DNA from: Ignavibacteria bacterium
GTDB lineage: Bacteria > Bacteroidota > Ignavibacteria > UBA10030
Assembly (NCBI GenBank): GCA_016873805.1
Contig: VGVZ01000028.1
Span: 1 to 37,866, forward strand
Length of the DNA stretch: 37,866 bases
Reading direction: 5' to 3'
In this document: positions 2-15,600 of the stretch, piece by piece
Position numbering within the stretch: the first letter of the stretch is position 1
How the letters are laid out: each line of letters opens with the position of its first letter
The notes under the pieces: generated by a model
The model's input: the letters and a program-made list of their open reading frames with translations, nothing else
The model's database searches: none
What the model was told of the DNA's origin: nothing
Made by a program: the position numbers and the translations under genes

Positions 2-127
2 ATGATTGAACGCTATGTCCAGCAATACAACAAACACCCAAAACCCTTCAGTTGGACCGCAACCGCCGATTCAATCCTTGCTAAAATCGAGCGACTTTGC
101 AAACGAATTTCCGACACGCGACACTAG
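2..127 (+). pseudogene. IS630-family transposase, C-terminal remnant
   Basis: The open frame from the window edge encodes about 41 residues ending in TAG. It matches the end of IS630-type DDE transposases: a Tyr/Asn pair, then PKPFSWTATADSILAKI, a block typical of the last 30-40 residues of that family. The rest of the gene lies outside the window, so whether the copy is intact cannot be judged. No clear terminal inverted repeat is visible between its stop and the next gene, whose conserved core begins within about ten bases. This suggests a rearranged junction rather than a clean insertion. Confidence 0.7.
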
Positions 128-987
128 CATACGGGGACGATTCGGGTTCATATGACATGAGGTACCGCCGCCTCACGCTCGTGTCAGGACCTGAGCCCTA
201 TTGCGCTGAACTCATACCTTTGCTTGAGGATAAGCTCACTGCTGAAGCGGTATCGGAACTTAAGTTCGAGGAAGTGCGTGGACATGCTCCCAAGATGCGG
301 ACTGCCGGCCACTTCCTTGAACAGACTGTTGCATATTGCTGTCGGAATAAGCTCCGAGTGGACGTGCTTTTATGGGACAACTACGATTCTCGGCATGCAA
401 TATCCCACCGCGATGATGAAGCAAACTTGGTTAGGATGTACTACAAGAATCTGCTGCACGTGGCGCGGAGGTGGGGGGCGGTTCAGTGGAGATTCCTTCC
501 GGATGAACAATCTGGCGTGGAGTGGAACGAACTGAGGAACTTTCTCAACAATACGCGGCTTGAAAAGCCTGCTCAGAGAGGGATGTCTCTGTTCCCCAAA
601 TCGAATCCCTTTCTAGAATTCGAGCCGATAGTGTCACAAAACTCAGTGTTGCATTCGCTAATCCAGACTGCTGACCTGTTTGGAGGGCTCTCTCGATTTT
701 CTCATGAGAAAGGTCGTGAGTATCTGAAATGGATAGGATCGGAAGAAGCCAAGGAGCAACCTGGTTTGTTCTTGCTCGATGACAACACAGAAGTTGGTGA
801 TTCAAAGGCTGATCGAGTGCGATTCTCACTACTCCGAAAGCTGGATGGTCTATGCAAGCAGTCCAAGCTTGGGGTGAGTTTGAGAACTTGGAGTGCTCTT
901 TCAACACCGAATCCTAACAATCCGATCAACTTCTGGAACTACGTCCCCCAGCACGAAATGGATAAGGCGCCAACGAAGTCAGGGTGA
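97..987 (+). CDS. DUF3800-like protein, start uncertain
   Basis: The 296-residue frame has an acidic N-terminal motif (AYGDDSGSYD, residues 11-20), like the DESG-type opening of DUF3800 proteins, which are thought to have an RNase H-like fold. Farther on are blocks typical of that family: a stretch around residues 86-96 (KLRVDVLLWDN), then YYKNLLHVARRWG, and a late LIQTADLFGG motif that corresponds to the conserved 'q.aDl.a' acidic site. The start shown is TTG inside the IS630 remnant; the next in-frame ATG (157) would remove the acidic motif. The native start may have been replaced by the transposon junction. Its stop overlaps a restriction-enzyme-like tail ORF. The family is common in mobile and defence islands; its biochemical role is not established. 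Confidence 0.6.
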   Translation: MQTNFRHATLAYGDDSGSYDMRYRRLTLVSGPEPYCAELIPLLEDKLTAEAVSELKFEEVRGHAPKMRTAGHFLEQTVAYCCRNKLRVDVLLWDNYDSRHAISHRDDEANLVRMYYKNLLHVARRWGAVQWRFLPDEQSGVEWNELRNFLNNTRLEKPAQRGMSLFPKSNPFLEFEPIVSQNSVLHSLIQTADLFGGLSRFSHEKGREYLKWIGSEEAKEQPGLFLLDDNTEVGDSKADRVRFSLLRKLDGLCKQSKLGVSLRTWSALSTPNPNNPINFWNYVPQHEMDKAPTKSG

Positions 988-1127
988 AGACAATTGAGCG
1001 TCGCGCCAAGAAGCTCGATATTTCCTCCGACACAAGTTCCTACGAGCAGGAGATCGACCAACTCGTGTACAAGCTGTACGAGCTCACGCAAGAAGAAATC
1101 GAAATCGTCGAGGGAAAGAAATCCTAA
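984..1127 (+). pseudogene. Restriction-modification enzyme C-terminal fragment
   Basis: A 47-residue frame opens with GTG overlapping the stop of the DUF3800-like gene. It contains IDQLVYKLYELTQEEIEIVE, which closely resembles the extreme C-terminus of TaqI/Eco57I-like type II methyltransferase-restriction enzymes. No upstream catalytic part is present in this frame; a stop lies seven codons before the GTG. It is best read as a relic of a larger R-M gene, although expression as a small protein cannot be excluded. A second copy of the terminal motif in another frame follows at about 1159-1209. Confidence 0.55.
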
Positions 1128-1158
1128 CACCTGCCCGCCGCAACGAAGTGAAGGCGGG

Positions 1159-1209
1159 GAGGAGGAGATCAAGTTGGTGGAGGGGGCAGCACATCAGAAA
1201 ACTTCATAA
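1159..1209 (+). pseudogene. Second copy of R-M enzyme terminal motif
   Basis: In the frame ending with TAA at 1207-1209 the sequence reads EEEIKLVEGAAHQKTS. This repeats the 'EEI.IVEG' ending of the fragment just upstream, but in a different frame. The two copies are separated by a G/C-rich imperfect inverted repeat (about 1131-1160). Only 16 residues match, so chance is possible. The stop overlaps the first base of the TcmP start codon. Confidence 0.3.
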
Positions 1210-2075
1210 TGATGGAATCAAACGTACTGAAAGAACCTGTGCCAATTTATTCTGCCGATGACGGTTTATTTACGCCCGAGATTGGGAGCTGGGGCGTTCA
1301 GAAGTATCGTCTGGTCGGAATGTACAATGAGCTTTTCTCCAAAGGCATGAAGGAGCGATGGGATCGACGCGTCTATATTGACTTGTTCGCGGGATCTGGC
1401 AAAGCCCGTCTCAGAGATAGCGGCAGAGTCGTACTGGGTTCGCCTTTACTTGCGCTGGCCGTTCCGAATCCCTACGACCGTTACATATTCTGCGAGCAAG
1501 ACAGCGATGCGATGAATGCCTTAAAACAACGCGTAAGCACGTTGAACACTAATCTGGACGTTCATTTTGTCGATGGCGACTGCAACGAACAGATAGATAG
1601 GATCATCTCCAAAATCCCACACTACTCCTCCGGAACAAAAGTACTTTCATTCTGCTTCGTCGATCCATTTTCTCTTGATATCCATTTTCAAACGATCGGG
1701 AAACTCGGAAATTACATTTTGGATTTCCTTATTCTTCTCATGCTCTCCGATCCCATGCGAAACGAGGATCGCTATACCGAGGAGAACAGTAAACGCATTG
1801 AGCTTTTCCTCGGAGTCCGCGACTGGCGGGAGAAGTGGAAAAGCGCAAAGTCTCGTAATATGGGCATTCGACAGTTCCTCGCGACGGAATTTGCGAATCA
1901 GATGATCATGCTTGGTTACAGGGAAGAAGCCTTGAGTTCGATGGTGGAAGTTCGATCCGACGATAGGAACCTTCCGCTCTACCATCTTGCTTTCTTTTCA
2001 AAGCACCCTCTTGGTTATAAGTTCTGGAACGAAGTCAGAAAATACGCCACCGATCAAACATCATTTGAGTTCTGA
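1209..2075 (+). CDS. tcmP: Three-Cys-motif partner protein TcmP
   Basis: The 288-residue protein matches the TcmP family (TIGR04474 type), named for its regular pairing with three-Cys-motif (DUF5131) proteins. Visible features are an N-terminal GSWGVQKYRLV block, a Rossmann/methyltransferase-like glycine motif YIDLFAGSGKAR (D58 to G64), a later acidic strand (FCFVDPFSLDI, near residue 155) resembling methyltransferase motif IV, and a C-terminal LYHLAFFSKHPLGYKFWNEV block. It ends seven bases before the ATG of the DUF5131 gene, so the two are clearly co-transcribed. There are two tandem ATG codons at 1209 and 1212 and no convincing Shine-Dalgarno. A SAM-dependent role is suggested by the fold; substrate and activity are unknown. 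Confidence 0.85.
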   Translation: MMESNVLKEPVPIYSADDGLFTPEIGSWGVQKYRLVGMYNELFSKGMKERWDRRVYIDLFAGSGKARLRDSGRVVLGSPLLALAVPNPYDRYIFCEQDSDAMNALKQRVSTLNTNLDVHFVDGDCNEQIDRIISKIPHYSSGTKVLSFCFVDPFSLDIHFQTIGKLGNYILDFLILLMLSDPMRNEDRYTEENSKRIELFLGVRDWREKWKSAKSRNMGIRQFLATEFANQMIMLGYREEALSSMVEVRSDDRNLPLYHLAFFSKHPLGYKFWNEVRKYATDQTSFEF

Positions 2076-2082
2076 GGAATTC

Positions 2083-2808
2083 ATGGCAACAAAATCGCAC
2101 ATCGAATGGACGGAAATGACCTGGAACCCTGTGACGGGCTGCAGTAAGGTCAGCGCCGGCTGCAAGTTCTGCTACGCAGAGCGGATGGCAAAACGACTGC
2201 GAGCGATGGGCGTGGAGCGCTATGACACTGCATTCGAAGTCACCCTCCACGAAGATTTGCTCGATGTCCCAAGGACGTGGCGCCAACCAAGGCTGGTTTT
2301 TGTAAACTCGATGAGTGATTTGTTCCACGAGGATGTGCCCCTCGGCTTCATCCGCAGAGTTTTCTCGACCATGTCCGGAACACCGCAACACACGTATCAA
2401 ATCCTCACAAAACGGAGTGGGAGGCTTGCTGAGTTGGCACCCGAGCTTGTTTGGCCTGCAAACGTGTGGATGGGAGTCAGCACCGAGGACGAACGCGTAC
2501 TATACCGAATCGAACACCTGCGCAGTGTTCCTGCGTCCGTACGCTTTCTCTCGTGCGAACCGCTCATCGGTCCCCTGGAGAATCTCGACTTAACCGGCAT
2601 TCACTGGGTAATCGTCGGTGGCGAATCTGGTCCGGGAGCCAGGCCTATGAGCAAGAAATGGGTCGAATCCATCAGACGCCAGTGTCGGCAAGTGAAAGTC
2701 CCGTTTTTCTTTAAGCAATGGGGGGGTGTGCGGAAGGATCTCACTGGGCGCGAGTTGAACGGTAGAATGTATGACGAAATGCCTCGGCACGCACTCGTGA
2801 GCGAATGA
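2083..2808 (+). CDS. DUF5131 (Gp37/Gp68) three-Cys-motif protein
   Basis: A 241-residue protein of the phage Gp37/Gp68 (DUF5131) family. The N-terminus has the hallmark IEWTEMTWNPVTGC, followed by C20, C27 and C30 (C-x6-C-x2-C), expected to bind an iron-sulfur cluster as in radical SAM-like enzymes. Further family blocks are FVNSMSDLFHEDVP, QILTKRSGRL, WMGVSTED, RFLSCEPLIGPL, WVIVGGESGPGARPM and a C-terminal PFFFKQWGG. The start at 2083 is chosen because GAGGA lies six bases upstream and family members begin here; the frame extends farther upstream into tcmP. It is the obligate genomic partner of TcmP. The reaction is not known to me; modification of a nucleic acid or protein is only inference. 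Confidence 0.88.
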   Translation: MATKSHIEWTEMTWNPVTGCSKVSAGCKFCYAERMAKRLRAMGVERYDTAFEVTLHEDLLDVPRTWRQPRLVFVNSMSDLFHEDVPLGFIRRVFSTMSGTPQHTYQILTKRSGRLAELAPELVWPANVWMGVSTEDERVLYRIEHLRSVPASVRFLSCEPLIGPLENLDLTGIHWVIVGGESGPGARPMSKKWVESIRRQCRQVKVPFFFKQWGGVRKDLTGRELNGRMYDEMPRHALVSE

Positions 2809-2931
2809 TATGAGATTTTCACAACCGAAAAGCACGGCCAACCTTCCGCCAGAGGCGGATCGTTCAATCGCGCGTGCCGCGGGTTGGTATGTGCACTCTG
2901 TCCGCGTCATTTCTGAGCGGCAAGAACTGCT

Positions 2932-2958
2932 GCGTGGTTACGCCAAACGTTAGCCGCC
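2932..2958 (+). repeat. attC-like site A (right half)
   Basis: The sequence GCGTGGTTACGCCAAAC is followed by GTTAGCC (2949-2955), a good right-hand integron core of the GTT(A/G)... type. Its reverse complement lines up with the left half found after the metallopeptidase gene (GGCGGCTAAC and AACCACGC). The matching left half is not clear here; GGCCAAC near 2848 is the only candidate. The next gene starts 17 bases after the core, as expected for a cassette. Confidence 0.5.
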
Positions 2959-2971
2959 ATTGGGTGCCTTA

Positions 2972-4033
2972 ATGAATCAATTCCGACGAGATAGCCACTT
3001 CTTACCATCACTTTACCTAAGGAAGTGGAGTACAGATGGCACACGAGTCTGGCTGTATCGTCTTCTCGTCTCTCGCCATGATGTCCCCGATTGGAAGCGT
3101 GCATCAATCAAAGGCATCGCGTATCACCAACACCTATACACCAGAATTGTTGCAGGATCTGACTCAGATGAGTTTGAGAGATGGCTCGATGCAGAATTCG
3201 AATCACCGGCCAAGGAGGCCCTTGACAAAGCTACATCTGACCGCCGCCTCCTCGCAAACGATTGGAAACGTCTCATTATGTTTGCTACTTCACAGGATGT
3301 TAGAACTCCAAAGAAATACATCGAACATCTTCAAAGATGGGTTGACTTGATGCCCAATCTGCTTGACGACACTCTTCGGAATGCAGTTCAAGAATTGGAG
3401 ACTTCCAAGCAGACGGGCAAAGAGCCTAAACTACCGACAACTCCACCTATGGAACCTATCCCCCTCGCTGTTAGCACTCACATTGAAAACGGAGCAGACC
3501 AAGGAATTCTCAAAGCCGAAGTAGTTGTCGGCCGGCAAAGCTGGCTTTCCAGTATGCGATACCTCTTGACTAATACTGCCCGCGTGCTTCTCCAACATAA
3601 GTGGACAATCATTCATGCACCCGACAACCTGAGATGGTTTACCAGCGATGATCCTTTCATCCGTCTGAACTATTACAAAGCAGGCTCATATGATTTCCGC
3701 GGCGGCTGGGGCAATAAGGGCACAGAACTCCTACTACCACTCTCTCCACTCCACCTTCTATACACTAAGGTTGGGCAGAGATCATCCCTACCGGTCCAGA
3801 TACCTGCTGAGACCGCTCGACTGCTTCAACGAATGATGGCCGAGCATGCACATCGCTTCATCATCTCATCCCAGCTTGACGATAGCATTCCAGCGTTGCG
3901 AACAAGGAAAGTGGATCCCATTGCATTTCAGCAAGAAAGAAATGTGTGGAGAGAATGGCACAAGCAGCAGACTGATGCCGAGCAAGCCCTTGCTCGCAAG
4001 AGCGATCAGGCCCCGGCACCCAACGGCGGCTAA
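2972..4033 (+). CDS. DUF4238-family protein (cassette gene)
   Basis: A 353-residue cytosolic protein. The opening RRDSHFLPSLYLRKWSTDGT followed by RVWLYRL matches DUF4238 ('HyvP.fYLr.Fs...'). Other family-like blocks are a QHLYTR motif with acidic residues behind it, FATSQDVRTPKKY, and WFTSDDPFIR, which fits the conserved 'f.tsDnPv' site late in the family. I chose ATG 2972 over the TTG at 2960 because residues align from MNQFRRD. The gene begins 17 bases after the GTTAGCC core and its TAA stop lies inside the next GGCTAAC site. This tight fit is typical of integron cassettes. DUF4238 proteins are of unknown function and are often found in accessory or defence regions. Confidence 0.75.
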   Translation: MNQFRRDSHFLPSLYLRKWSTDGTRVWLYRLLVSRHDVPDWKRASIKGIAYHQHLYTRIVAGSDSDEFERWLDAEFESPAKEALDKATSDRRLLANDWKRLIMFATSQDVRTPKKYIEHLQRWVDLMPNLLDDTLRNAVQELETSKQTGKEPKLPTTPPMEPIPLAVSTHIENGADQGILKAEVVVGRQSWLSSMRYLLTNTARVLLQHKWTIIHAPDNLRWFTSDDPFIRLNYYKAGSYDFRGGWGNKGTELLLPLSPLHLLYTKVGQRSSLPVQIPAETARLLQRMMAEHAHRFIISSQLDDSIPALRTRKVDPIAFQQERNVWREWHKQQTDAEQALARKSDQAPAPNGG

Positions 4034-4034
4034 C
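4025..4034 (+). repeat. attC-like left core, interrupted by IS
   Basis: GGCGGCTAAC overlaps the stop codon of the DUF4238 gene and is identical to the left core after the metallopeptidase gene (6690-6699). The expected palindromic spacer does not follow; transposon-derived sequence begins instead, which suggests the site was split or truncated by the IS110-type element. Confidence 0.45.
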
Positions 4035-4401
4035 ACTTTATAAAAGGTCAAAGTCCCCGTAAAACAACAAACGGGGCAGGCAAGAGAAAAATATCCCCCG
4101 TTCATCCTTTGATGAAAAACGATGGCTGTTTTTTTGACGTTTTTGTGCACCGACCGCGCCCGACACGTCGATGAGACATCCCTGAATGAGGGATAGCAGA
4201 AAACACTCGGACTGGTCCCAAACACTTTAGCGGGCTCTGACCTCAGCACAAGCAACGTCACGGCCCAGATGTTTCATCGGCAGCGCAGCTGCGTCCCAAG
4301 CAAGCGGTAGGGAGATTTCCCTCTCGGGGATCTCCAGTTAGCCGCACGGGCTTGCAGCTGCGAAGCCAGTCACGAGTCTCAAGCGAAGCTGAAGCCTTGC
4401 T
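4035..4401 (-). ncRNA. Non-coding IS end, possible guide-RNA region
   Basis: No gene is visible in these 367 bases. Three short perfect stems can be seen: CCCCGT/ACGGGG (4055-4076), ATCCCT/AGGGAT (4178-4194) and GGAGAT/ATCTCC (4311-4335). The region lies immediately downstream of the transposase remnant in its own orientation. In IS1111-type elements this is where the bridge (seek) RNA is encoded. That a guide RNA is or was made here is inference from position and family, not from a recognised RNA motif. Confidence 0.25.
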
Positions 4402-4917
4402 TCAGCGGAGCCAGGTCTTGCGAACGATGATGCCTTTGAATGTTTTGAACTCTTCATGCCTGCTGAGAACGTAAAAGACGATCTTCGATAGTTCTTTGGC
4501 AACAACTGTACGGGCAATCGCCGGATTCGAACGCTGTTCGATCCGAGCGGCAAGCTGTCCGATGACGGGATAAAATCTGATCGCCTTGAGCGCCGCCTCG
4601 GTGTAGGCAAATTTCAAGTACTGGTTGCCGTCTTTGGAGCCCGAGCGGTGGCGGTGTTTTCCCCCGGAATCCCGTGCCCCAGGTGCAAGACGACAGTAGG
4701 AAGCATAATGCTTGTCGTTGGGGAAGCGAGCAATATCACCGGTCTCTATCGCGATGATCGCACCAGTGATATCCCCGATCCCGGGAACGGAGAGCAGAAG
4801 TTGGAGCGTCGGTGTTGGACGCAGCTCGCGTTTGAGATACTCTTCGAGGTGCCGTTTGTGCTCGACAACCTGGAGACATTGCTGGTGATGCAACACGGTA
4901 ACAATCAAGATTCTCAT
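4402..4917 (-). pseudogene. IS110-family transposase, N-terminally truncated
   Basis: The 171 residues cover only the C-terminal Transposase_20 half. LLSVPGIGDITGAIIAIETG, FPNDKHYASYCRLAPG, HRSGSKDGNQYLKFAYTEAA and the closing FKTFKG are standard blocks. The N-terminal DEDD (RuvC-like) nuclease domain of about 150-200 residues is missing: the frame breaks off at 4917, right before the Shine-Dalgarno of the lipoprotein gene on the opposite strand. The remnant cannot be active as a transposase. It lies antisense to the cassette genes. Confidence 0.85.
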
Positions 4918-4938
4918 GAGACAACGAGGAGATTTGTT

Positions 4939-5364
4939 ATGTACAGAACTCTTACTACTCTTTCACTTACAGCTGCTGTGCTTCTCCTCTCCGGATGTGC
5001 AAATGGCATCAGCACTCAACAGGTGCATAAGGAGCTGGAAGGCCCTGAATGGGTCGTCCAGTCCTTCCGCGAGATTGATGGAACAACTACAGGTCCAGGT
5101 ACCGTCGCTCTCATCGTTCGCTTCATCCCCCCAGACACATTGTCAGCGAAGGCAGATAATGAACTCTGGGGGCGGTACACCATACAAAACGGTACACTGT
5201 CAATCAGCAAGTTGGGCGGAACAAAACGCGGTTTGTCTCCTGGTTCTCGAGAAGATGACTTCATGCAAGCCTTGGAGAATGCAACCTCTTACTCCATAGA
5301 CGGAAACAAACTCTCCATCCACTACTTTGACAAGACCAGGGCGATCAATCTCCTTGCAAATTGA
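4939..5364 (+). CDS. META-domain lipoprotein (cassette gene)
   Basis: A 141-residue protein with a lipoprotein signal: MYRTLTTLSLTAAVLLLSGC puts the lipid-anchoring Cys at position 20. Residues 33-140 look like a META (DUF306/HslJ-type) domain: a WVVQSF strand, an LIVRFIPPDT strand, NELWGRYTIQNGTLSISKLG, then FMQALENATSYSIDGNKLSI near the end. ATG 4939 is chosen because CGAGGAG lies about eight bases upstream and because it gives a perfect signal peptide; the longer frame upstream is only the antisense of the IS110 remnant. The attC-like site B follows about 30 bases after the stop. META proteins are linked to envelope stress or resistance, but the specific job here is unknown. Confidence 0.8.
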   Translation: MYRTLTTLSLTAAVLLLSGCANGISTQQVHKELEGPEWVVQSFREIDGTTTGPGTVALIVRFIPPDTLSAKADNELWGRYTIQNGTLSISKLGGTKRGLSPGSREDDFMQALENATSYSIDGNKLSIHYFDKTRAINLLAN

Positions 5365-5391
5365 CAACCATGACAAAACCGGCGGCGCCAA

Positions 5392-5568
5392 CGAACGCCT
5401 AACAGCAGGCACTACGGCGCTCGATCATTTGAGAAGTCGAAAATAGGAAAAGCCCATGGAGCAATCACTATAGTGCTCGCTCCATACCGTTGCTCACTGG
5501 TTGGTAGGTAAAACGTATTTAAGGTTCGCAACGGTACGGCGTAGTGCCTGCAGACGTTAGCTGCCATT
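5392..5568 (+). repeat. attC-like site B (complete)
   Basis: The left core GCCTAAC (5397-5403, preceded by ACGAAC) is followed by AGCAGGCACTACGGCG. The right side carries CGGCGTAGTGCCTGCAGAC and then GTTAGC (5556-5561). The arms GCAGGCACTAC and GTAGTGCCTGC are perfectly complementary over 11 bases. A middle part of about 130 bases contains further weak inverted sequence. Left core, two arms and right core in this order and orientation are the layout of an integron attC. The following gene starts 17 bases after the core. Confidence 0.6.
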
Positions 5569-5578
5569 ATTTTGTGCA

Positions 5579-6688
5579 ATGACAATGAGACTCCGAATCC
5601 TACTCATATACCTGACATTGGGCACTCTGAACTCACTCGCCCAAGAACCTTCGACGAACGAGTGGCGCATCAGTCCATCACTCAAATACGACGCGTTCTA
5701 CTTCATCAACGCAATCTCCAAGCAGGACTTCTATAATCGGATGTACCCCCGAGATGCTTTGCTTTGGCGTGGTCGACTTGGAGAACAAACAATCAACTCA
5801 ATCAACACTATTATCGACTCCATCGGCAGTGTTGGTTTCAAAGCATCCTACTTGTTTACCCACATCCCCGTCTTTTCCCTGGATGACTTGATCCACGCCC
5901 TGCGGGATACCGCAATCTTGAGAGACCGAATCCAATCTGCCTCACTATTGAGCAAAGACTTCCGATATGAAGCATCGATAAATGATCTTAACAGAATCCT
6001 GCCCCACTCTGCCAGATTGATTACCATCTTTTCAAAGATGAGAGACGAACGTTGGGAAGACGATTGGAAGGCGATCACACACAGATTAAACGCTGACATT
6101 GCCCGCAAGCGTCGAGAGTTGACCAAACACTCCCCTGCTTCATTACGAACCGAAGCTCTCCGTTTCCTTGGGATTGATGCTCGGCAAAAAGACTCATCGT
6201 CAACGGTATATTACGTCTATTATGCCTTCCCGAATGCGTTCAAATTGCCATACAATATGATGGCCACCTGGAGTATCGAAGAGCCACAGTACTTCTTCAG
6301 TGCCTATCTCCACGAAATGCTCCATCTGTTCTCCATCTATGCACCTGAATTCATAGAACTGCACAACCATCTGTTGAAACACTCCCCAGCGTTCTCCCAG
6401 CAACGAAACATTCTTGTGAAGCAGCTCTATGCATCTGATGACGAGTTCTACGTTCTTGCTGCCGAAGCGTTTCTATCTATCAAGGTCGGTATCAGAACGC
6501 ATCAACAAGCGGTCGATTACTTGAAGTCCGCAAATGGCGGAACGGTTGTCTACTCTTTGTTGATCTACGACCATCTACAAAAGTCATTTGACTATCGGCG
6601 CCACTCGTTCGGCAGTTTTCTCAAGGACGTATTCTTCAAGAATGTCACAGCAACCGAAGTGGAGGCGTTCATCGCAGACACAAAATAA
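5579..6688 (+). CDS. Secreted HExxH protein, putative zinc metallopeptidase
   Basis: A 369-residue protein with an N-terminal signal peptide (hydrophobic LRILLIYLTLGTLNSLAQ, probable cleavage after residue 21 or 22). A zinc-binding motif HEMLH is at H245-H249 inside a hydrophobic context (FFSAYLHEMLHLFSIY), and an AAEAF segment with E296, about 47 residues on, could supply the third ligand. I do not recognise the family; the layout fits a gluzincin-type extracytoplasmic peptidase. The start may be ATG 5579 or the in-frame ATG 5585, and no Shine-Dalgarno is evident. The gene is tightly enclosed between attC-like sites B and C, so it reads as a single-gene cassette. Confidence 0.65.
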   Translation: MTMRLRILLIYLTLGTLNSLAQEPSTNEWRISPSLKYDAFYFINAISKQDFYNRMYPRDALLWRGRLGEQTINSINTIIDSIGSVGFKASYLFTHIPVFSLDDLIHALRDTAILRDRIQSASLLSKDFRYEASINDLNRILPHSARLITIFSKMRDERWEDDWKAITHRLNADIARKRRELTKHSPASLRTEALRFLGIDARQKDSSSTVYYVYYAFPNAFKLPYNMMATWSIEEPQYFFSAYLHEMLHLFSIYAPEFIELHNHLLKHSPAFSQQRNILVKQLYASDDEFYVLAAEAFLSIKVGIRTHQQAVDYLKSANGGTVVYSLLIYDHLQKSFDYRRHSFGSFLKDVFFKNVTATEVEAFIADTK

Positions 6689-6689
6689 C

Positions 6690-6830
6690 GGCGGCTAACA
6701 GCCGCAACCACGCCGCTCCCCCTCGATTCACCCGCCGTCTTTGAGAGAAGACTGAGTCGTCGGCGGGTTCGCTCGGGGTCACTCAATCCGTCTCAGGCGG
6801 ACTGCAAGGCTACCCCAAACGCTATGCGTC
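6690..6830 (+). repeat. attC-like site C
   Basis: The left core GGCTAAC (6693-6699) is followed by the arm AACCACGC and an imperfect cruciform built on CCCGCCG (left) and CGGCGGG (right). The right end is degenerate: ACGCTATG stands where ACGTTAGC is expected, and its arm no longer pairs with the left arm. Positions 6704-6805 are almost identical to the central part of site D. Confidence 0.5.
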
Positions 6831-6981
6831 TTGGCCGCCCGCATCAACATTCAGCGGAACTGCAGTGATCACAGATTGGTGCGATTCGAAAAGGGTTCGA
6901 ACAATCAATCGAGGACGGATTGGGCAGCTGCCTGCCAACTTTCCGGTAGGCTTCTATTCAAGCGAGGCGACGGGAACAACT
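6831..6981. other. Spacer downstream of toxin-antitoxin genes
   Basis: Between attC-like site C and the end of the antitoxin gene I see no gene or recognisable signal. A short plus-strand frame across 6865-7080 is only the antisense of the antitoxin 3' end. Confidence 0.4.
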
Positions 6982-7260
6982 TTAGTCGGTGAGCTGAACT
7001 CGAAGCTTCTTACCCAGGGCTTTCGCATACTTCCCCAGGGTCGAGAGGCGGATATCTTCTGCATGGTTCTCGATACGTGAAATAGCGGATTTCTTCGTCC
7101 GTAATCGCTTCGCAATCGTCTCTTGAGTGATCCCTGCTTTCTCTCGAGCTTCACGGAGCATGACACTAAACTCGAACGCTTCGTACCTTGACTCAAAGTG
7201 CTCAGCAAATTTCACACTGCGCTTCTTACGACGTTCAATATACCGTTCAACATCACTCAT
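6982..7260 (-). CDS. higA: HigA-type XRE antitoxin
   Basis: A 92-residue DNA-binding antitoxin. Residues 33-86 form a helix-turn-helix of the XRE/HTH_3 class: [19 protein letters not shown], then [11 protein letters not shown] as recognition helix. The N-terminal 30 residues are charged and probably bind the toxin. It overlaps the upstream toxin gene by four bases (ATGA), which gives the toxin-first order typical of higBA. Both genes run against the direction of the neighbouring cassettes, as is common for toxin-antitoxin cassettes that carry their own promoter. The pair should be self-regulated through an operator upstream of the toxin gene. Confidence 0.85.
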
Positions 7261-7610
7261 GGCTTCTTCCTCCTTTGTAAATAGTCTGATCGACGTCTCA
7301 AGGCAAGGTCTATCTCCCGGCGAGGGGTCTTTTGCTGTTTCTTCGAGAATCCACTTGTCAAGACAAGTAACACTCGTCCGTCATATAATCCAAGCAAGCG
7401 GTAACGTCGACCTCCGCTTTGTGCCCGTACTTCCCATAACTCATCCGTACCAACAAGTTTCTTCAAATACTGAACTGGGACAGAGTCCATCCTCTCGACC
7501 AATCGAAGTACCCAAGCAACTTTCTGGGCATCTTGATCTGAGAGTGTATCAAGAAACTCTTCAACCGGGCAGTTTCCAGTTTGTGTTCGATAAAACACTA
7601 TGACGCGCAC
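7257..7610 (-). CDS. higB: HigB/RelE-superfamily toxin (Gp49-like)
   Basis: A 117-residue protein of the phage-derived Gp49-like (DUF891) branch of the RelE superfamily, expected to be a ribosome-dependent mRNA interferase. Matching features are [19 protein letters not shown] near the N-terminus, [20 protein letters not shown], the strand [20 protein letters not shown], and a basic tail [17 protein letters not shown]. The start is GTG. The gene lies between two almost identical attC-like spacers, and a likely operator sits directly upstream. It overlaps higA by four bases, so the two are translated together. Confidence 0.85.
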
Positions 7611-7617
7611 GGCTCAA

Positions 7618-7635
7618 GTTAACATATTTGTGAAC
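7618..7635 (-). promoter_or_regulatory. Probable higBA operator
   Basis: An 18-base imperfect palindrome, GTTAACATATTTGTGAAC, lies eight bases upstream of the toxin start codon. Its half-sites GTTnACA and TGTnAAC are symmetric apart from the central base of each half. The position next to an XRE antitoxin operon fits autoregulation; the assignment is inference. Confidence 0.45.
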
Positions 7636-7664
7636 AACCCGCAAGCTCTTTTTCAGGCGGCCAC

Positions 7665-7800
7665 GAACACCTAACAGCAACCACGCCGCTCCCCCTCGAC
7701 TCACCCGCCGTCTTTGAGAGAAGACAGAGTCGCCAGCGGGTTCGCTCGGGGTCACTCAATCCGCCTGAGGCGGACTGCGTGGTTGGGCGAGACGTCATGG
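7665..7800 (+). repeat. attC-like site D
   Basis: The left core ACCTAAC (7669-7675, preceded by ACGAAC) is followed by the arm CAACCACGC. The right arm GCGTGGTTG (7777-7785) is its exact complement. The centre is a cruciform nearly identical to that of site C. The right core is degenerate (ACGTCATG instead of ACGTTAGC). The P-loop kinase gene starts about 30 bases after it. Confidence 0.55.
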
Positions 7801-7828
7801 CATCATTTGCGGCACGCGCGATAGACAA

Positions 7829-8425
7829 ATGAAAGACATGAACCCAGTCCGTCAGATTACGGTTCAGACAATCGATGATCTCATAATCGAGATTCAATAC
7901 ATCAAAAGCACCAGACCCCTTCAGATCGTCTCAATTGATGGGAAAGACGGGACAGGGAAATCAACCATCGCGAGAGCGCTTTCTGAAAGATTGCCGTTTC
8001 GTCATATCGAATTGGACCGATATCTCATTCGGAAACAAGATCATTATGTTGGCTTCATTCGTTATCATGATCTCCGACCTGCCATTTCCTCTGCTCGTGA
8101 AAGTGGAAAGGTTGCGCTGATCGAGGGCGTATGTGTTCAGGCCGTTCTCAACCGATTGCAGCTTTGCTCCGACCTCTCTATCTATGTCAAGCGGACAGGT
8201 CCGGACGGTGATTGGTACGACGAACGCTATTTTGATCGTTCTTCAACCCGTGAAGCCATATTCGAAATCGACCGTGAGAACCGTCGCGCGTTTGCCAAAG
8301 CCATGAATGAACCATACAATGAAGACGAACAAGAAACGTTGTTTCACGAGGTTGTGCGCTACCACTTCCAATTTGAACCTCACATCACCGCGAATATCAC
8401 CGTCGCATGGAACCACTCTGCATAG
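7829..8425 (+). CDS. P-loop kinase-like protein (cassette gene)
   Basis: A 198-residue cytosolic protein with a clear Walker A motif, GKDGTGKST, at residues 38-46 after the strand LQIVSID. A Walker B-like strand follows (KVALIEGVC, near residue 95). A basic/aromatic RTGPDGDWYDE region may act as lid. The architecture is that of the uridine kinase/nucleoside kinase-like NTPases, and the N-terminal DDLIIEIQ region also resembles such proteins. The specific substrate cannot be read from the sequence. It occupies its own slot between attC-like site D and a damaged site E. Confidence 0.65.
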   Translation: MKDMNPVRQITVQTIDDLIIEIQYIKSTRPLQIVSIDGKDGTGKSTIARALSERLPFRHIELDRYLIRKQDHYVGFIRYHDLRPAISSARESGKVALIEGVCVQAVLNRLQLCSDLSIYVKRTGPDGDWYDERYFDRSSTREAIFEIDRENRRAFAKAMNEPYNEDEQETLFHEVVRYHFQFEPHITANITVAWNHSA

Positions 8426-8445
8426 TTTTCTATGTGCGTGCTGCA

Positions 8446-8480
8446 AACGAACGCCTATCAATGCGCACCACGCCGCACCC
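8446..8480 (+). repeat. attC-like site E (left half, degenerate)
   Basis: AACGAACGCCTATC matches the left cores of sites B and D except for one base (GCCTATC against GCCTAAC). The arm CACCACGCCGC follows. No right half is found; the sequence runs directly into the DUF4256 remnant, so the array ends or was cut here. Confidence 0.4.
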
Positions 8481-8669
8481 TACAGGGAGCTGCAGGAACT
8501 TGGACATTTCGATACGAAGACGTCGAGCCGGGTGTTCACACCTTCTGATATCAGAAAACTCGGTGACGCCCTCTTCTGCGATCGGCGGTATGACACCGTT
8601 TTCGTCTATCACAACGGCGCCGAGTCGTATTACGGTGCGAGGGGGTTCCGCGGCTTGCTCAGGGTCTGA
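8481..8669 (+). pseudogene. DUF4256 protein, C-terminal remnant
   Basis: The last 62 residues of this frame (YRELQELGHFDTKTSS..., then DIRKLGDALFCDRRYDTVFV, YHNGAESYYGARGFRGLLRV) match the end of DUF4256 family proteins of roughly 190 residues. About two thirds of the gene is missing and the frame upstream of 8481 is non-homologous cassette-boundary DNA. No start codon or Shine-Dalgarno fits, so it is a relic fused to attC-like site E. Confidence 0.7.
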
Positions 8670-10624: not shown

Positions 10625-10711
10625 AGTTTGTTGATCGAATGATGTTGTCGGGTCTTGCGCGACGCAGAAGATGTCTTGTTTGCAGATCACAAACACTCAA
10701 GGAGTCATTGC

Positions 10712-10870
10712 ATGACATACGTTGACGGATTTGTTCTGCCTGTCCCAAAGAAGAACTTGAAAGCATATCGCCGCATGGCTCGGCAAGCGGAGAAGCTCTG
10801 GTGCAGACATGGTGCGTTGGAATACAAGGAATGTGTAATTGATTCCTTCCTTGGGAAAAAGGTGTTATGA
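10712..10870 (+). pseudogene. DUF1428 protein, truncated
   Basis: The first 42 residues (MTYVDGFVLPVPKKNLKAYR, then WCRHGALEYKECV) match the N-terminus of DUF1428 proteins, normally about 115-120 residues long. After ECV the frame gives ten unrelated residues and stops, so the conserved C-terminal half (with the FsWI and RDrVN-type blocks) is absent. A good Shine-Dalgarno (AAGGAG) remains eight bases upstream. The gene has been cut by a deletion; the DNA from 10871 to 10994 holds nothing recognisable. Confidence 0.75.
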
Positions 10871-10994
10871 TTTGACAAGGATACAACGCAGAGCTCGATG
10901 AGCATCAATTCCCGTCACTCCTTGACTCCCGCATAGTTCTTCCGTACCATCCTGCAGAATTTTCCACCGAGACGATTAAAATCCGGCCAATCTC

Positions 10995-11447
10995 ATGCAG
11001 AAACGAGGAACACACCTGATACTCTCCTTTTGTGCACTGCTCACAGCGCAGGTGCAAGGACAGTCGCTCGAGGAGCAGGCCGTTAATCGCGTGCAAAGCG
11101 TATCGGCATCAATCCTCGATTCGACGTTGAGTAATACCCCGTTTGCCGACTGGCTCGCGAAGATGTGTGGCGATAGTGCAAGCGTCGAGTGGGAATTGAA
11201 TGACTGCGGGGAGCAAACAGGCGACCCGTCCATCGACAAAGATCGAGATATCCCCGCCTGTGTCGGCGTCACGGTCACTCTTCGCAAAAATCAATCGATC
11301 GGCATATCCATTCTCGTTGGAACTCATCGCAAGGGTCTGATAGGGAATCCGACAGTGTACGATATCTATCTCGCGTCAGCGGAGAAGGTCCGTACGATCA
11401 AGCGTCTCAGCGAGATTCCGAGCGTGCTCAGGCAGTCGGTGCGGTGA
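10995..11447 (+). CDS. Small secreted protein, unknown family
   Basis: A 150-residue frame with an N-terminal signal peptide (LILSFCALLTAQVQGQ, cleavage near residue 22). The mature part has three cysteines (one in MCGDSA, one in NDCGEQ, one in PACVGV). A C-terminal beta-rich part includes VTVTLRKNQSIGISILVG and VYDIYLASAEKV. No family is recognised. There is no strong Shine-Dalgarno. Its stop overlaps by one base with a short downstream frame (TGATG), suggesting possible coupling. Confidence 0.5.
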   Translation: MQKRGTHLILSFCALLTAQVQGQSLEEQAVNRVQSVSASILDSTLSNTPFADWLAKMCGDSASVEWELNDCGEQTGDPSIDKDRDIPACVGVTVTLRKNQSIGISILVGTHRKGLIGNPTVYDIYLASAEKVRTIKRLSEIPSVLRQSVR

Positions 11448-11614
11448 TGCATCGGCTCCGGACTCGTGCGATAAACTCGATCCAGGGACGTATCGATGCA
11501 TATCTTCCCCATCGGTATCAGATCAAGCGGGAGTTGCTCGCGTCAACGCAGGACATGAGGAGCGACCAGAGGATTCATCATACATTGAAAGCCGCGGGCA
11601 TTCTGGTGAGGTGA
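11447..11614 (+). CDS. Short basic ORF, possible remnant
   Basis: The frame starts at an ATG that shares one base with the preceding stop codon and encodes 55 residues rich in Arg, His and Ile (IDAYLPHRYQIKRELLASTQ, HHTLKAAGILVR). It looks protein-like, with plausible amphipathic helices, but I recognise no family. It could be a coupled small protein or the tail of a lost gene. Confidence 0.3.
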   Translation: MHRLRTRAINSIQGRIDAYLPHRYQIKRELLASTQDMRSDQRIHHTLKAAGILVR

Positions 11615-11726
11615 GCTCGCTGTCAATCTCCTTCATCTTTCCATTCATCGCCAATCCTCTTCCGTTCCCGATTCAATGCTGCAAACTCTCACTTGCATCT
11701 TCCCGATGAGATGGATATGTTAGGCA
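11615..11726. other. Intergenic, nothing recognised
   Basis: Between the short ORF and the minisatellite no gene or signal is apparent. Confidence 0.4.
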
Positions 11727-11800
11727 GGTGAAAGGTGAGAAGTGAAAGGTGAGAAGTGAAAGGTGAGAAGTGAAAAGTGAGAAGTGAAAAGTGAGAAGTG
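11727..11800. repeat. 14-bp tandem repeat (minisatellite)
   Basis: About five copies of GTGAAAGGTGAGAA, with the last copies varying to GTGAAAAGTGAGAA, give a purine-rich strand of 74 bases. There are no spacers and no palindromes, so it is not a CRISPR. It lies in a gene-free stretch before the D-aminoacylase-like gene. Confidence 0.85.
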
Positions 11801-12026
11801 ATTGCGCGCTGGAGTCAAGCCGCTGTTTGTGTCGATCGCGGCGGGAGAAGCAAAAAGTGGATGGTGAATAGATGATGGAGCGCGTTTCCACACAATTCCA
11901 CGAAATCGGCTCGAGCATAAGATCACTAGGGGGGAAAATCTGCTCGCATCCAAGAATTTTTGATCGAACAGTGAGTCAAAGAGGGCCGCGCATCTCTGTC
12001 GTTTGCCGCGATAACTTCATGGAATT
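11801..12026. other. Upstream region of aminoacylase-like gene
   Basis: No coding sequence is visible. The stretch should contain the promoter of the next gene, but I see no convincing -35/-10 pair. It holds only a short G-run (AGGGGGGAAAA near 11930). Confidence 0.3.
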
Positions 12027-12038
12027 GTGAGTGTGACA

Positions 12039-13727
12039 ATGGAACACATGATCGTTCGCATCATCGTCGTTGGTTTGCTTGCGCTGTCTGCCTGCGCTCC
12101 CTCTCCGGACTACGATGTCGTGATTCGCAATGGAACGATTTATGACGGGAGCGGCGGAGAGGAGTATGTCGGCTCTCTGTACATCAAGGGAGACACGATC
12201 GTTGCAGTCGGTACAGAAGACCTCGGGCGTGGGAAGATCGAAATCGACGCCAGGGGGAAGGCCGTCGCCCCCGGGTTCATCAACGTCCTGAGCTGGGCGA
12301 CGGAGACGCTGATCGAAGACGGGAAATCGCAGAGTGACATTCGTCAGGGGGTCACGCTCGAAGTCTTCGGCGAGGGATGGTCGATGGGCCCCCTCAATGA
12401 TTCAATGAAAGTCTTGATGAAGAAGGAGCAGGGGAACGTCAAGTACGACATCGCGTGGACGACGCTCGGTGAATATCTCGAGTATCTGGAGCGAAAAGGG
12501 ATCTCGACAAACGTCGCCTCGTTTCTCGGCGCTACAACCGTTCGCATCCACACGCTCGGCTACGACGATCGTCCTCCGACGCCGGATGAACTTGACCGTA
12601 TGAAATCACTCGTGCGGCAGGGGATGGAAGAAGGAGCGCTCGGTATCGGCTCTTCCCTGATCTATGCACCGGCGTTCTACGCGAAAACCGATGAGCTCGT
12701 GGAGCTCTGCAAAGTCGCTGCGGGGTACGGCGGGATGTACATTTCCCACATGCGAAGTGAAGGAAATCAGTTGCTCGAAGCGGTCGATGAATTCATTTCC
12801 ATCGCCCGGCGTGCAAGTATCCGCTCAGAAATCTATCATCTCAAAGCGGCCGGACAGAAGAATTGGCCGAAGATCGATAAGGTCATCGTGCGAATCGAAT
12901 CCGCGAGGGCGGAAGGGCTCGAGGCTACTGCCAACATGTATCCGTACATCGCAGGAGCGACAGGTCTCGATGCCGCCATGCCCCCGTGGGTGCAGGAAGG
13001 CGGTCACGAGGCATGGGTGAAGCGGCTGAAAGATGTGTCCATTCGAGCGCGTGTGGCAAAGGAGATGTCCGTCCCTTCAACCACGTGGGAAAACCTCTAC
13101 CTGGCGGCAGGTTCCCCCGAAAACGTTTTGCTCGTCGGGTTCAAGACCGACTCGCTGAAATATCTCACCGGAAGATCTTTGGCTGATGTGGCGAGAATGC
13201 GAGAAACATCGCCCGAGGAGACAGCGATCGATCTCGTTATCGCCGATGACAGTCGAGTCGGAACCGTCTATTTTCTGATGTCTGAGGAGAACGTTCGCAG
13301 GCAAGTCGCGCTTCCCTGGATCAGTTTTGGATCGGATGCGGAATCTTTGGCCCCCGAAGGCGTGTTCTTGAAATGGAATCCCCATCCAAGAGCGTACGGG
13401 ACGTTTGCGAGAGTCCTGGGGAAGTATGTCCGTGAAGAAAAGGTCATTTCGTTGGCAGAGGCGATCCGTCGGTTGAGCTCTTTGCCGGCTGACAATTTGC
13501 GGCTCAAGCATCGAGGATTGTTGAGGCCGGGATTCGTCGCAGATGTCGTTGTCTTCGATCCGGAGAGAATCAATGACCACGCGACGTTCGACAGGCCGCA
13601 TCAGTTCTCGACAGGAGTTGTTCACGTCTTTGTGAACGGAGTGCGGGTTCTCGCGGATGGTGAACATACCGGCGCCATGCCGGGTCGAGTTGTCCGCGGC
13701 CCCGGTTGGAGCGGTTGGAAGAAATAG
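12039..13727 (+). CDS. N-acyl-D-amino-acid deacylase-like lipoprotein
   Basis: An amidohydrolase of about 562 residues related to D-aminoacylase/N-acyl-D-glutamate deacylase. A lipoprotein signal (VVGLLALSAC) precedes the amidohydrolase N-terminal beta part (YDVVIRNGTIYDGSGG). Metal ligands of the barrel are visible in YISHMRSEG, SEIYHLKAAG and SFGSDAES. The first-strand HxH motif, normally GFIDxHxH, is replaced by PGFINVLSWA, and the usual metal Cys region (NCGxS) reads VFGEGWSMGP. This looks like a distinct subfamily rather than random decay, since the rest is well preserved including the C-terminal GLLRPGFVADVVVFDP block. GTG 12027, ATG 12039 and ATG 12048 are all possible starts. It acts outside the cytoplasm; the substrate is uncertain. 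Confidence 0.8.
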   Translation: MEHMIVRIIVVGLLALSACAPSPDYDVVIRNGTIYDGSGGEEYVGSLYIKGDTIVAVGTEDLGRGKIEIDARGKAVAPGFINVLSWATETLIEDGKSQSDIRQGVTLEVFGEGWSMGPLNDSMKVLMKKEQGNVKYDIAWTTLGEYLEYLERKGISTNVASFLGATTVRIHTLGYDDRPPTPDELDRMKSLVRQGMEEGALGIGSSLIYAPAFYAKTDELVELCKVAAGYGGMYISHMRSEGNQLLEAVDEFISIARRASIRSEIYHLKAAGQKNWPKIDKVIVRIESARAEGLEATANMYPYIAGATGLDAAMPPWVQEGGHEAWVKRLKDVSIRARVAKEMSVPSTTWENLYLAAGSPENVLLVGFKTDSLKYLTGRSLADVARMRETSPEETAIDLVIADDSRVGTVYFLMSEENVRRQVALPWISFGSDAESLAPEGVFLKWNPHPRAYGTFARVLGKYVREEKVISLAEAIRRLSSLPADNLRLKHRGLLRPGFVADVVVFDPERINDHATFDRPHQFSTGVVHVFVNGVRVLADGEHTGAMPGRVVRGPGWSGWKK

Positions 13728-13755
13728 AGAAATTGCGAGGAGAGGACCGAGGAGA

Positions 13756-14676
13756 ATGTTAGACAACAAGCATACGAAAATTCTGCTGGTTGATGATGAT
13801 CCCCTTGCGCTGGATCTGACACAGCGAATGCTGACCGAAGACGGATACGAGTTTCTGACCGCCGAAAGCGGGGAGGAGGCGCAAGAGATGCTTGAGACGC
13901 CGGTGTCTGATCTGGGGGCCGTAGTTCTCGATTGGCGAATGCCGGGCATGAGCGGCATCGACGTACTGGTGTGGATGAAGGAGCAGGAAGCGCTCGAACA
14001 TCTTCCCGTCGTGATGCAAACGGGAATGATCGAGCCGGAACACATTCGTCAAGGCATCGAAGCGGGTGCATTCTACTATCTGACCAAACCGACTGAACGG
14101 GAAGTTCTCCGATCAGTCGTTAAAGCAGCGGTCTCGGATTTTCAAAGTAAACAGGCACTCCTCGATAGACTCCGCAAGTCCGACAATCCGTACCAAATGC
14201 TCCGCGAAGGAATCTTCCATGTCCGAACGCTCGAAGAGGCCGAGTATCTCTCCGTGCGAATCGCAAACTCGTGCAAGGCCCCCGATCGCGTCGTGCACGT
14301 CTCCGAGATCATCACGAACGCCATCGAACATGGCAACCTCAAGATCTCGTATGAGGAAAAGACCGAGCTTGTGAAATCGGGAGCGTGGAACCGGGAGCTC
14401 GAACGCCGACTCGCGTTGCCGGAGAACGCCCACAAGTATGTGGAGGTCGGCGTCAAGCGGACTTCGGACCATTTGACCGTTACGGTTGTCGATCAGGGAG
14501 ATGGTTTCGAATTCCAAAAATACCTCGAGATGGACGAGTCACGCGTCTTCGATAATCATGGCCGCGGCATCGCGATTGCCCACAGCTATATCGACCTTGA
14601 CTATGTCGGTAAGGGGAACAAGGTGGTGATCACCGTTGCGTGCGATAAACATCTTCCACCGGCTCACACGCAATAG
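13756..14676 (+). CDS. Receiver-HATPase (RsbW-like) fusion regulator
   Basis: A 306-residue two-domain regulator. Residues 7-125 form a CheY-like receiver with the acidic pair in LLVDDDPLAL, the phospho-acceptor Asp in VVLDWRMPGMSG, the Thr in MQTGM and the Lys in YYLTKP. Residues about 160-300 form a GHKL ATPase of the anti-sigma-factor kinase kind: N-box VSEIITNAIEHGN, G1 box VDQGDGFEF, and G2 HGRGIAIAHSY. There is no dimerisation/His phosphotransfer domain, so it is not a classical sensor kinase. It more likely phosphorylates or sequesters an anti-anti-sigma partner under control of an unseen sensor. ATG 13756 has GGAGA close upstream; the frame extends farther upstream without homology. 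Confidence 0.88.
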   Translation: MLDNKHTKILLVDDDPLALDLTQRMLTEDGYEFLTAESGEEAQEMLETPVSDLGAVVLDWRMPGMSGIDVLVWMKEQEALEHLPVVMQTGMIEPEHIRQGIEAGAFYYLTKPTEREVLRSVVKAAVSDFQSKQALLDRLRKSDNPYQMLREGIFHVRTLEEAEYLSVRIANSCKAPDRVVHVSEIITNAIEHGNLKISYEEKTELVKSGAWNRELERRLALPENAHKYVEVGVKRTSDHLTVTVVDQGDGFEFQKYLEMDESRVFDNHGRGIAIAHSYIDLDYVGKGNKVVITVACDKHLPPAHTQ

Positions 14677-14700
14677 CCGATTCACCCTCTGTGTGGCGTG

Positions 14701-15600
14701 ATGGTGTCCATCCTTCCTTTCCATATCCAATCCCGGCTTCAGGCAATCTGCACCGACAACATGAGCAGTGCTTCCTCTCTGGCGGAAGCGCTCCTCACCG
14801 TGTTTACCCGCATCGCAGAATCCGGTGATGCGGTCTCTGCTGCCGAAATAAAGGCCTGGATCACGCGAGTCACGAAAGAGGTCGTTCATTCCCACGCCGC
14901 CATGGCTCAGCTGTTCAATGTCTCAGAAGACCTTGTCCGCCATATCGAACGATTGAATCATGTGGATCAGATTCGTCAAGAGATTCTCTCCTACTGTGCG
15001 ACGGTGCGCGAACGATTGTCGGATGCAATCGACAAGATTGCAGAATTCGGTGCGGAGAAGATCCAAGATCGGATGACAATTGCGGTCCATTCCAGGAGTG
15101 CTGCGGTCGAGAGTCTTCTGCTTCGAGCACATACGCTGGGGAAGCAATTCACCGTCTGTTGTTTTGAATCCCGCCCGATGATGGAGGGGCGGGCGCTCGC
15201 GGCGGCATTGGCACACGCGGGAATCCACGCCACATTGGCCATCGATGCCGCAATGGCTTCGATGGTCCCGAAAACGGATCTCGTCCTCGTCGGTGCCGAC
15301 GGGGTCACGGCCGATGGAATCGTGAACAAGATCGGCACCCTCGCGCTTGCCAATGCCGCGAAGAACTCCTCCATCGATTGCTATTCCTGTTTTTCAATCG
15401 ACAAGGTGTTTCCCTCGCATAGACAACCGGCCATTGACCGTCAAATGGATCCGCGCGAGGTGATCGATGAAGTCCCCCCGGGCGTACATGTCGTCAACAT
15501 CTACTTTGACCTCACACCCTTCTCGCTCTTTCGGGGATACATCACGGAGAAAGGGATTGTGGACGAATCCTTTGTTCATGCCGTGTCCGATCGAGCGTAG
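14701..15600 (+). CDS. eIF2B alpha/beta/delta-like (MtnA-related) protein
   Basis: A 299-residue protein of the IF-2B family, which includes methylthioribose-1-phosphate isomerase (MtnA) and ribose-1,5-bisphosphate isomerase. An alpha-helical N-terminal half precedes the Rossmann-like part, which shows CCFESRPMMEGRALAAALAH, the conserved TDLVLVGADGVTADGIVNKI and GTLALANAAK. In characterised isomerases the 'GADg....g...NKiGT' block carries the catalytic Asp, which is present here. The substrate is unknown; it is too divergent to call MtnA. It follows the receiver/HATPase gene by 24 bases and may be co-transcribed. GTG 14698 directly before the ATG is an alternative start. Confidence 0.75.
   Translation: MVSILPFHIQSRLQAICTDNMSSASSLAEALLTVFTRIAESGDAVSAAEIKAWITRVTKEVVHSHAAMAQLFNVSEDLVRHIERLNHVDQIRQEILSYCATVRERLSDAIDKIAEFGAEKIQDRMTIAVHSRSAAVESLLLRAHTLGKQFTVCCFESRPMMEGRALAAALAHAGIHATLAIDAAMASMVPKTDLVLVGADGVTADGIVNKIGTLALANAAKNSSIDCYSCFSIDKVFPSHRQPAIDRQMDPREVIDEVPPGVHVVNIYFDLTPFSLFRGYITEKGIVDESFVHAVSDRA

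Follow-up and report, generated by a model that had tools for sequence, protein, structure and literature searches.

Sedentary chromosomal integrons, which combine an integrase (IntI), an attI site and a series of attC sites, are the described systems closest to the locus presented here. As set out in PMC7790495, the I2 helix of classical integrases docks the extrahelical bases of attC and also blocks the chromosome-breaking second strand exchange, and is held necessary for cassette capture; the IntI-specific domain is in turn described as the feature that defines IntI and that the standard finder requires (PMC9668308). Within the integron-like subgroup of simple tyrosine recombinases the insert is reported not to be fully conserved (Smyshlyaev et al. 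2021, PMC8138268), and insert-less relatives are already known as proteins, whereas the part of that study drawn on here describes no arrays or sites for them. Among the titles and abstracts listed in a search of the open-access literature, with subscription papers and preprints outside its scope, none concerned cassette arrays of insert-less integron-like recombinases. Here we analyse the whole of contig VGVZ01000028.1 (C28; 37,866 nucleotides, hereafter the window) of the Ignavibacteria bacterium assembly GCA_016873805.1, in which positions 2949-8459 form a head-to-tail array of five cassettes with GTTA../..TAAC cores and complementary arms. We consider it probable that these cassettes belong to an integron-like system driven not by IntI but by an insert-less tyrosine recombinase type, which we label IntX.

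Results and Discussion

A Site Type without Extrahelical Bases

Behind IntX in related genomes, the sites share a geometry of NNNTAAC, 1 nt, an unbulged stem of about 12 bp, 4 nt and GTTANNN. The extrahelical bases of an attC hairpin are absent from it: the window site at 5397-5562 has 12 of 12 contiguous pairs, and many IntX sites are alike in this. A strict scan for the geometry, tolerant of one mismatch and run on both strands of 119 loci (1.32 Mb in all), yielded 16 hits against 0.3 per shuffle, distributed as one in the window, one on contig C58 of the same genome, 12 in relatives' IntX loci and two in named Bacteroidales loci, with none in 13 IntI loci. Classical sites near IntI in relatives are of a different type, with a bulge in the arm as judged by eye. 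They become visible in a looser arm scan, in which many loci stand at shuffle-level noise; a scan with classical R boxes found a site in one of six sources examined, the window not being among the six, and the core type differs.

Rfam gave no match, and the hexamer GTTAGC is not enriched in the window (7 observed vs. 6.6 expected). A covariance model of the host genome's sites, R1, had all three full sites of the window in its training and scores all three; with its RNAalifold structure it has just 9 pairs and is effectively a repeat-family model, and we therefore built a second model, R2, from 15 sites, none of them from the window and one from another contig of the same genome. Both R2 and the geometry scans search for unbulged stems, and the helix counts on the R2 alignment (A5) are strong; these counts are not taken as proof, because the sites were chosen for pairing and the argument would be circular. 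R2 finds the window site at 5397-5562 with 80.5 bits (E 2.4e-15), whereas none of the 13 IntI loci yields an R2 hit at E<=1, and the bottom strand of 5391-5568 folds with a z-score of -4.8, none of 200 shuffles being equally stable. The above-chance signal of the array thus lies in the structure of its site and not in the core word.

An Insert-less Recombinase and a Putative attI-like Core

The sequence-only reading that preceded this analysis found no integrase inside the window, in agreement with our result, and suggested that one may lie beyond the transposase remnant. The host genome (60 contigs, 99% complete) contains no match to TIGR02249, the integron integrase model, over its cut-off, a level that is reached in 13 of 41 genomes; its best match, below the cut-off, is a tyrosine recombinase of 308 amino acids whose gene stands last on contig C17. 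An alignment of 11 IntX proteins (this one and 10 from relatives) with five IntI shows that IntX keeps the catalytic residues and lacks the IntI-specific insert (I2), and membership of the integron family fails on its defining domain. Among solved structures IntX matches an integron integrase best (2A3V, 209 bits, in two stretches), with Xer proteins ranking lower, and on the IntX profile IntX proteins score 205-514 bits vs. about 110-167 for Xer. A tree of 109 recombinases places 14 of the 16 IntX-labelled rows in a single clade (95/89); of the other two, L085 branches close by and L080 groups with Bacteroidota rows. A larger, weakly supported clade (80/98) unites IntX with the IntI clade and four other rows, the tree being drawn open with a root that serves the drawing only. 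The IntX gene of C17 is intact, and a remnant resembling the same recombinase type, recognized by eye, lies directly upstream of it (L053, ~5500-5679).

The C17 gene reads toward a core of its own: behind the stop codon stand an inverted repeat and, beginning 29 bases from the stop, GTTAGCCGCAATGCC, and the contig ends 35 bases past this seven-base core. Across 16 of the 21 loci viewed (three, L070, L074 and L081, were dropped with the contig ending before the stop, and L088 and L089 as weak matches), GTTANNNGNNA occurs within 130 bases behind the IntX stop in eight (background 3.9%, p 5e-8) and a relaxed form in 11 (background 16%, p 3.5e-6). All three held-out IntX loci have the core, at 44, 58 and 60 bases behind the stop. 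What stands beside the recombinase where an integron has attI is thus a putative attI-like core.

Co-occurrence of IntX and Sites

In a test of 41 genomes (R2 at E<=0.001; IntX called at a profile score of at least 200 bits), at least two R2 sites are present in 13 of 16 genomes with IntX vs. seven of 25 without it (Fisher p 0.001); when the same genomes are divided by IntI, the counts are 5 of 13 with it and 15 of 28 without (p 0.89). One alternative, in which IntX is just a neighbouring recombinase, is an ordinary CALIN (cluster of attC sites lacking integrase), that is, a decayed classical array whose IntI has been lost or falls into an assembly gap. Its integron-like plan of cores, arms, one gene per unit and an antisense toxin-antitoxin cassette, the IntI genes in relatives and the division of the assembly into 60 contigs speak for such an origin, which we nonetheless judge unlikely given the lack of an IntI over the cut-off in the host genome, the independence of site numbers from IntI and the silence of R2 at IntI loci. 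In G004, which has both IntX and IntI, the listed R2 sites lie on C9, C44, C61 and C66, and none on the IntI contig C31. The window itself does contain at least two sites without an integrase, but these are not classical attC; of the CALIN assignment made in the sequence-only reading, the cassette array lacking an integrase within the window stands, and attribution of the array to an ordinary IntI integron is not supported.

At the scale of the phylum (198 genomes, R2 at E<=1e-6, best candidates per genome scored), sites occur in eight genomes, comprising all six with IntX at 380 bits or more, three of which were not in training, whereas of the remaining 192 genomes only G007 and G012 have any. 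In G077 and G181, which belong to other families of the class, the sites lie downstream of IntX and on the same strand in three of three held-out IntX loci; both genomes also have a single additional site, on a contig for which no IntX is listed. These counts also bear on the idea that the arrays are mobilized by the host Xer pair, or by IntI in trans, with IntX as a passenger beside them. Xer-type recombinases are indeed present in nearly all of the 41 genomes and arrays far from IntX exist, but site numbers and the attI-like core track IntX, whose best solved relative is an integron integrase and not Xer, and we regard mobilization of this kind as rather improbable.

A separate observation concerns Bacteroidota outside the class. 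In the cultured strain Arundinibacter roseus (L096, NZ_SMJU01000006.1), positions 10677-15220 hold six sense hits of the relaxed scan behind an IntX-like recombinase, and the two Bacteroidales hits of the strict scan come one each from two metagenome-assembled genomes. Spread beyond the class is treated here as a lead, because R2 found no match in any of 80 named loci, L096 and the Bacteroidales loci included.

Complementary Cassette Ends with a Fixed Mismatch

Movement as a circle would bring the two ends of a unit together, and we therefore compared the 24 nt beyond the core at both ends of 70 cassettes, three of them from the window. The mean pairing score is 19.0 vs. 9.0 for 734 swapped pairs from the same genomes; a score of at least 16 is reached by 80% of the cassettes vs. 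3.8% of the swapped pairs, and the observed sum by none of 2000 permutations. Held-out loci behave likewise (9/11 vs. 2/110). For the cassette that comes first after the attI-like core, scores are 15-25 in the six relatives' loci that have both the core and a first site, values given without a swapped control, and 17-28 in the three held-out loci. Pairing beyond the cores to 9-11 nt is described for classical cassettes (PMC2727003), and in 17 IntI cassettes of relatives we find it weaker (11.9 vs. 9.6 swapped).

Identity between the ends is 0.64-0.91 at positions 8-18, save for position 11, where it drops to 0.06. The start carries A at this position in 64 of 70 cassettes and the reverse complement of the end carries G in 51, both together in 49; eight other cassettes, one of them poorly pairing, show an indel pattern instead, and 7 of 11 held-out cassettes have the mismatch. 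The words ACGAAC, which had been noticed before three left cores in the window and are indeed there, fit this indel pattern. The mismatch reads as a G.T wobble on the folded bottom strand and as A.C on the top one. In 60 of the 70 cassettes the bottom strand is predicted to form the more stable outer stem, in 10 the top strand (mean difference 1.3 kcal/mol vs. 0.3 in swapped pairs); no bias of this kind is seen in the inner stem. Complementary ends are known as such, and for the length of the outer stem and its fixed mismatch we found no listing.

Possible mobility of the units was followed with 5.6 kb of the array in 100 genomes, the host included, with up to three candidate places scored in each. 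Matches occur in 19 genomes, in 12 other genomes to the toxin-antitoxin pair, in five to the part belonging to an insertion sequence (IS) of the IS110 family and in one to a site. Among these, no match spans two window cassettes, and no shared gene order came to light. Among nine toxin-antitoxin loci viewed with flanks of up to ~1.5 kb (L189-L196 and L198), none has another window cassette gene, and four (L190, L191, L194 and L196) have an R2 site within 115 bases of the pair; in G038 the pair stands behind the first site downstream of IntX. Within the host genome, the first 134 bases of C58 (L051 1-134) and C21 (L052 1-134) are identical and diverge four bases behind a GTTAGGC core, and thus show one leader with two different first cassettes, which may stand at separate places of one genome or stem from two cell lines. 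These patterns weigh on a further possibility, that the sites are dispersed repeats between genes, akin to repetitive extragenic palindromes (REP) or miniature inverted-repeat transposable elements (MITEs), with no cassette recombination at all. A conserved repeat of ~120 bases does form the central part of many sites of the host genome; the ends of a unit, however, are complementary to one another but not to the ends of different units, as the permutations attest, and the toxin-antitoxin unit recurs in other neighbourhoods, which leaves dispersed repeats a very improbable account.

Proposed Mechanism and Its Weighing

In the reading that we prefer, cassettes moved by IntX, each site would fold into a hairpin with an unbulged inner stem of ~12 bp, an asymmetric 1:4 nt spacer and a TAAC/GTTA core, and in the excised circle the two ends of the cassette would form an outer stem of ~19 nt with the conserved mismatch, which the bottom strand would present as a wobble (G.T) and the top strand as A.C. 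The choice of strand, which in classical integrons depends on extrahelical bases read by the I2 helix, would then be set by spacer asymmetry and wobble, and the attI-like site to which IntX would join circular cassettes is the one that closely follows the stop codon of its gene. The main reason for proposing IntX as the acting enzyme, and the folded bottom strand as its substrate, is that the I2 helix and the bulge that it docks are both absent: enzyme and site differ from the classical pair in the same respect, which suggests that IntX acts on folded strands with another strand signal. The window array, which is partly decayed, may once have owed its mobility to the C17 enzyme or to a copy since lost.

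Several observations weigh against this reading. The window array lies on a different contig from IntX, with no physical link between the two. R2 misses the window sites at 6693-6827 and 7669-7800 at E<=1, the strict attI-like core is confined to half of the 16 IntX loci, and the relaxed scan gives two sense hits in one IntI locus (L066) and an antisense hit in another (L060). Without the seven training genomes, the contrast in co-occurrence becomes 6 of 9 vs. 7 of 25, with a Fisher p of 0.051 (Mann-Whitney p 0.017). Among the IntX genomes, R2 finds no site in G014 and G017 and a single one in G016, the IntX gene lying near a contig end in all three; conversely, the genomes without IntX that have at least two sites include G020 with seven, and many arrays stand far from any IntX (for example on G026 contigs C6, C7 and C4). 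Both the 200- and the 380-bit lines were chosen after the scores were known, the latter at a gap from 385 to 345, and 63 further genomes of the phylum sample encode weaker IntX-like proteins (229-345 bits) with no R2 site at E<=1e-6. The negative R2 result in the named loci belongs here as well.

That the system works like an integron is well supported. With sedentary chromosomal integrons it shares unidirectional one-gene units, folded sites with AAC/GTT cores, an attI-like site by a tyrosine recombinase, antisense toxin-antitoxin cassettes and ends that pair beyond the cores; it differs in that IntX has no IntI insert, the inner stem no extrahelical base and the outer stem a length of ~19 nt with a conserved mismatch, and in that the IntX gene is oriented toward the array and has the attI-like core past its stop codon. 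With Xer recombinases, including those exploited by integrative mobile elements (IMEX), IntX shares the fold, the catalytic residues and the lack of an I2 helix, whereas on the IntX profile its scores greatly exceed those of Xer, and it adjoins cassette arrays.

A cassette system with an insert-less enzyme and bulge-free sites would make the origin of integron recombination testable in living examples, and bears on how integrons arose, as a capture system without a part thought essential. More tentatively, IntX arrays might be living integrons from before the I2 helix, in which capture at folded sites came first, with strand choice by spacer and wobble, and the insert and extrahelical bases were added later; we hold this to be possible, if on the doubtful side. 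A cassette system with an insert-less enzyme would also account for arrays without a recognized integrase in this clade, because the standard finder demands the IntI-specific domain, and it points to a cassette reservoir that searches based on that domain miss.

Features of the Window

The cores, arms and genes of the array (Table 1) lie where the sequence-only reading had placed them, with the DUF4238 stop codon inside the core at 4028-4034, two genes beginning ~17 bases behind a core, and cargo that is typical of cassettes, the toxin-antitoxin pair among it. Integron R boxes follow the consensus RYYYAAC/GTTRRRY. The left cores here are GGCTAAC (4028-4034 and 6693-6699), GCCTAAC (5397-5403) and ACCTAAC (7669-7675) and the right cores GTTAGCC (2949-2955) and GTTAGCT (5556-5562); AAC and GTT are retained, and GCCTAAC matches the consensus, whereas GGCTAAC and both right cores do not. 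Two of the three full sites are decayed, their folds being matched in stability by 35 of 200 shuffles (6693-6827) and five of 200 (7669-7800). The ends of cassette 1 form a 20-nt inverted repeat at 95% (2949-2968/4015-4034), the complementarity of the ends of cassette 5 was judged by eye and is unscored, and the HExxH protein gene has no Pfam match.

Table 1. Cassettes, sites and associated features of the array, with positions in the window
Feature	Position	Strand	Details
Right half of cassette site	2857-2955	+	Core GTTAGCC (2949-2955) at its right end; the left half has decayed or is missing; R1 13.1 bits, E 0.053, model positions 90-141 only
Cassette 1	2949-4034	+	DUF4238 gene 2972-4033; PF14022, 5e-25; end score 22
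IS110-family relic	4035-4917	-	Adjoins left core of cassette 1; C-terminal part of transposase 4402-4917; PF02371, 1.6e-21
Cassette 2 remnant	4939-5403	+	META lipoprotein gene 4939-5364; PF03724, 9e-10; left end lost at IS relic
Intact cassette site	5397-5562	+	GCCTAAC, A, 12-bp stem, AGAC, GTTAGCT; strict scan 12/12 pairs
Cassette 3	5556-6699	+	HExxH protein gene 5579-6688; ends complementary, end score 24
Cassette site, decayed right core	6693-6827	+	Right core GCTATGC (6821-6827); R1 139.6 bits (trained on it); fold z -0.93
Cassette 4	6821-7675	+	Toxin-antitoxin pair oriented against the array; end score 18
Toxin-antitoxin genes	6982-7260 (helix-turn-helix, HTH); 7257-7610 (Gp49-like)	- (both)	PF01381, 2.5e-12; PF05973, 5e-17
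Cassette site, decayed right core	7669-7800	+	Right core GTCATGG (7794-7800); R1 135 bits (trained on it); fold z -2.05
Cassette 5	7794-8459	+	Kinase-like gene 7829-8425; weak AAA/kinase Pfam matches, all below cut-off
Left half of cassette site	8453-8486	+	Degenerate core GCCTATC (8453-8459); right half lost; R1 15.8 bits, E 0.0094

The transposase relic between cassettes 1 and 2, previously taken for an IS630 remnant, belongs to the IS110 family by its Pfam match. The window copy is truncated, with one end lost, and the same IS110 end stands directly behind a core on contig C47 of the host genome (76.8% identity over 125 columns); in both sites, at window 4028-4140 and at ~11822-11938 of L050 (C47), it follows TAACA directly. 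Known IS1111-attC elements are described as sitting in classical attC likewise directly behind the core (PMC11187229). The present relics share with these and related IS110 elements the place right behind the core, the same in two sites, and differ in that the target is an IntX-type site and the window relic is truncated.

DNA resembling one of the window sites is also found on contigs C13, C47, C58 and C21 of the host genome and, by model, on C52 and C50. On C50, furthermore, a segment at the end of another cassette (L171 5585-5967) is 93% identical to window 5040-5422, the end of the META cassette. To the left of the array, window 97-2808 holds three genes that are possibly older cassettes: one DUF3800-like (below cut-off), one that matches no Pfam family and one of the DUF5131 family. 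Farther to the right, at 11714-11801, lies a short tandem repeat with a period of 14 bases.

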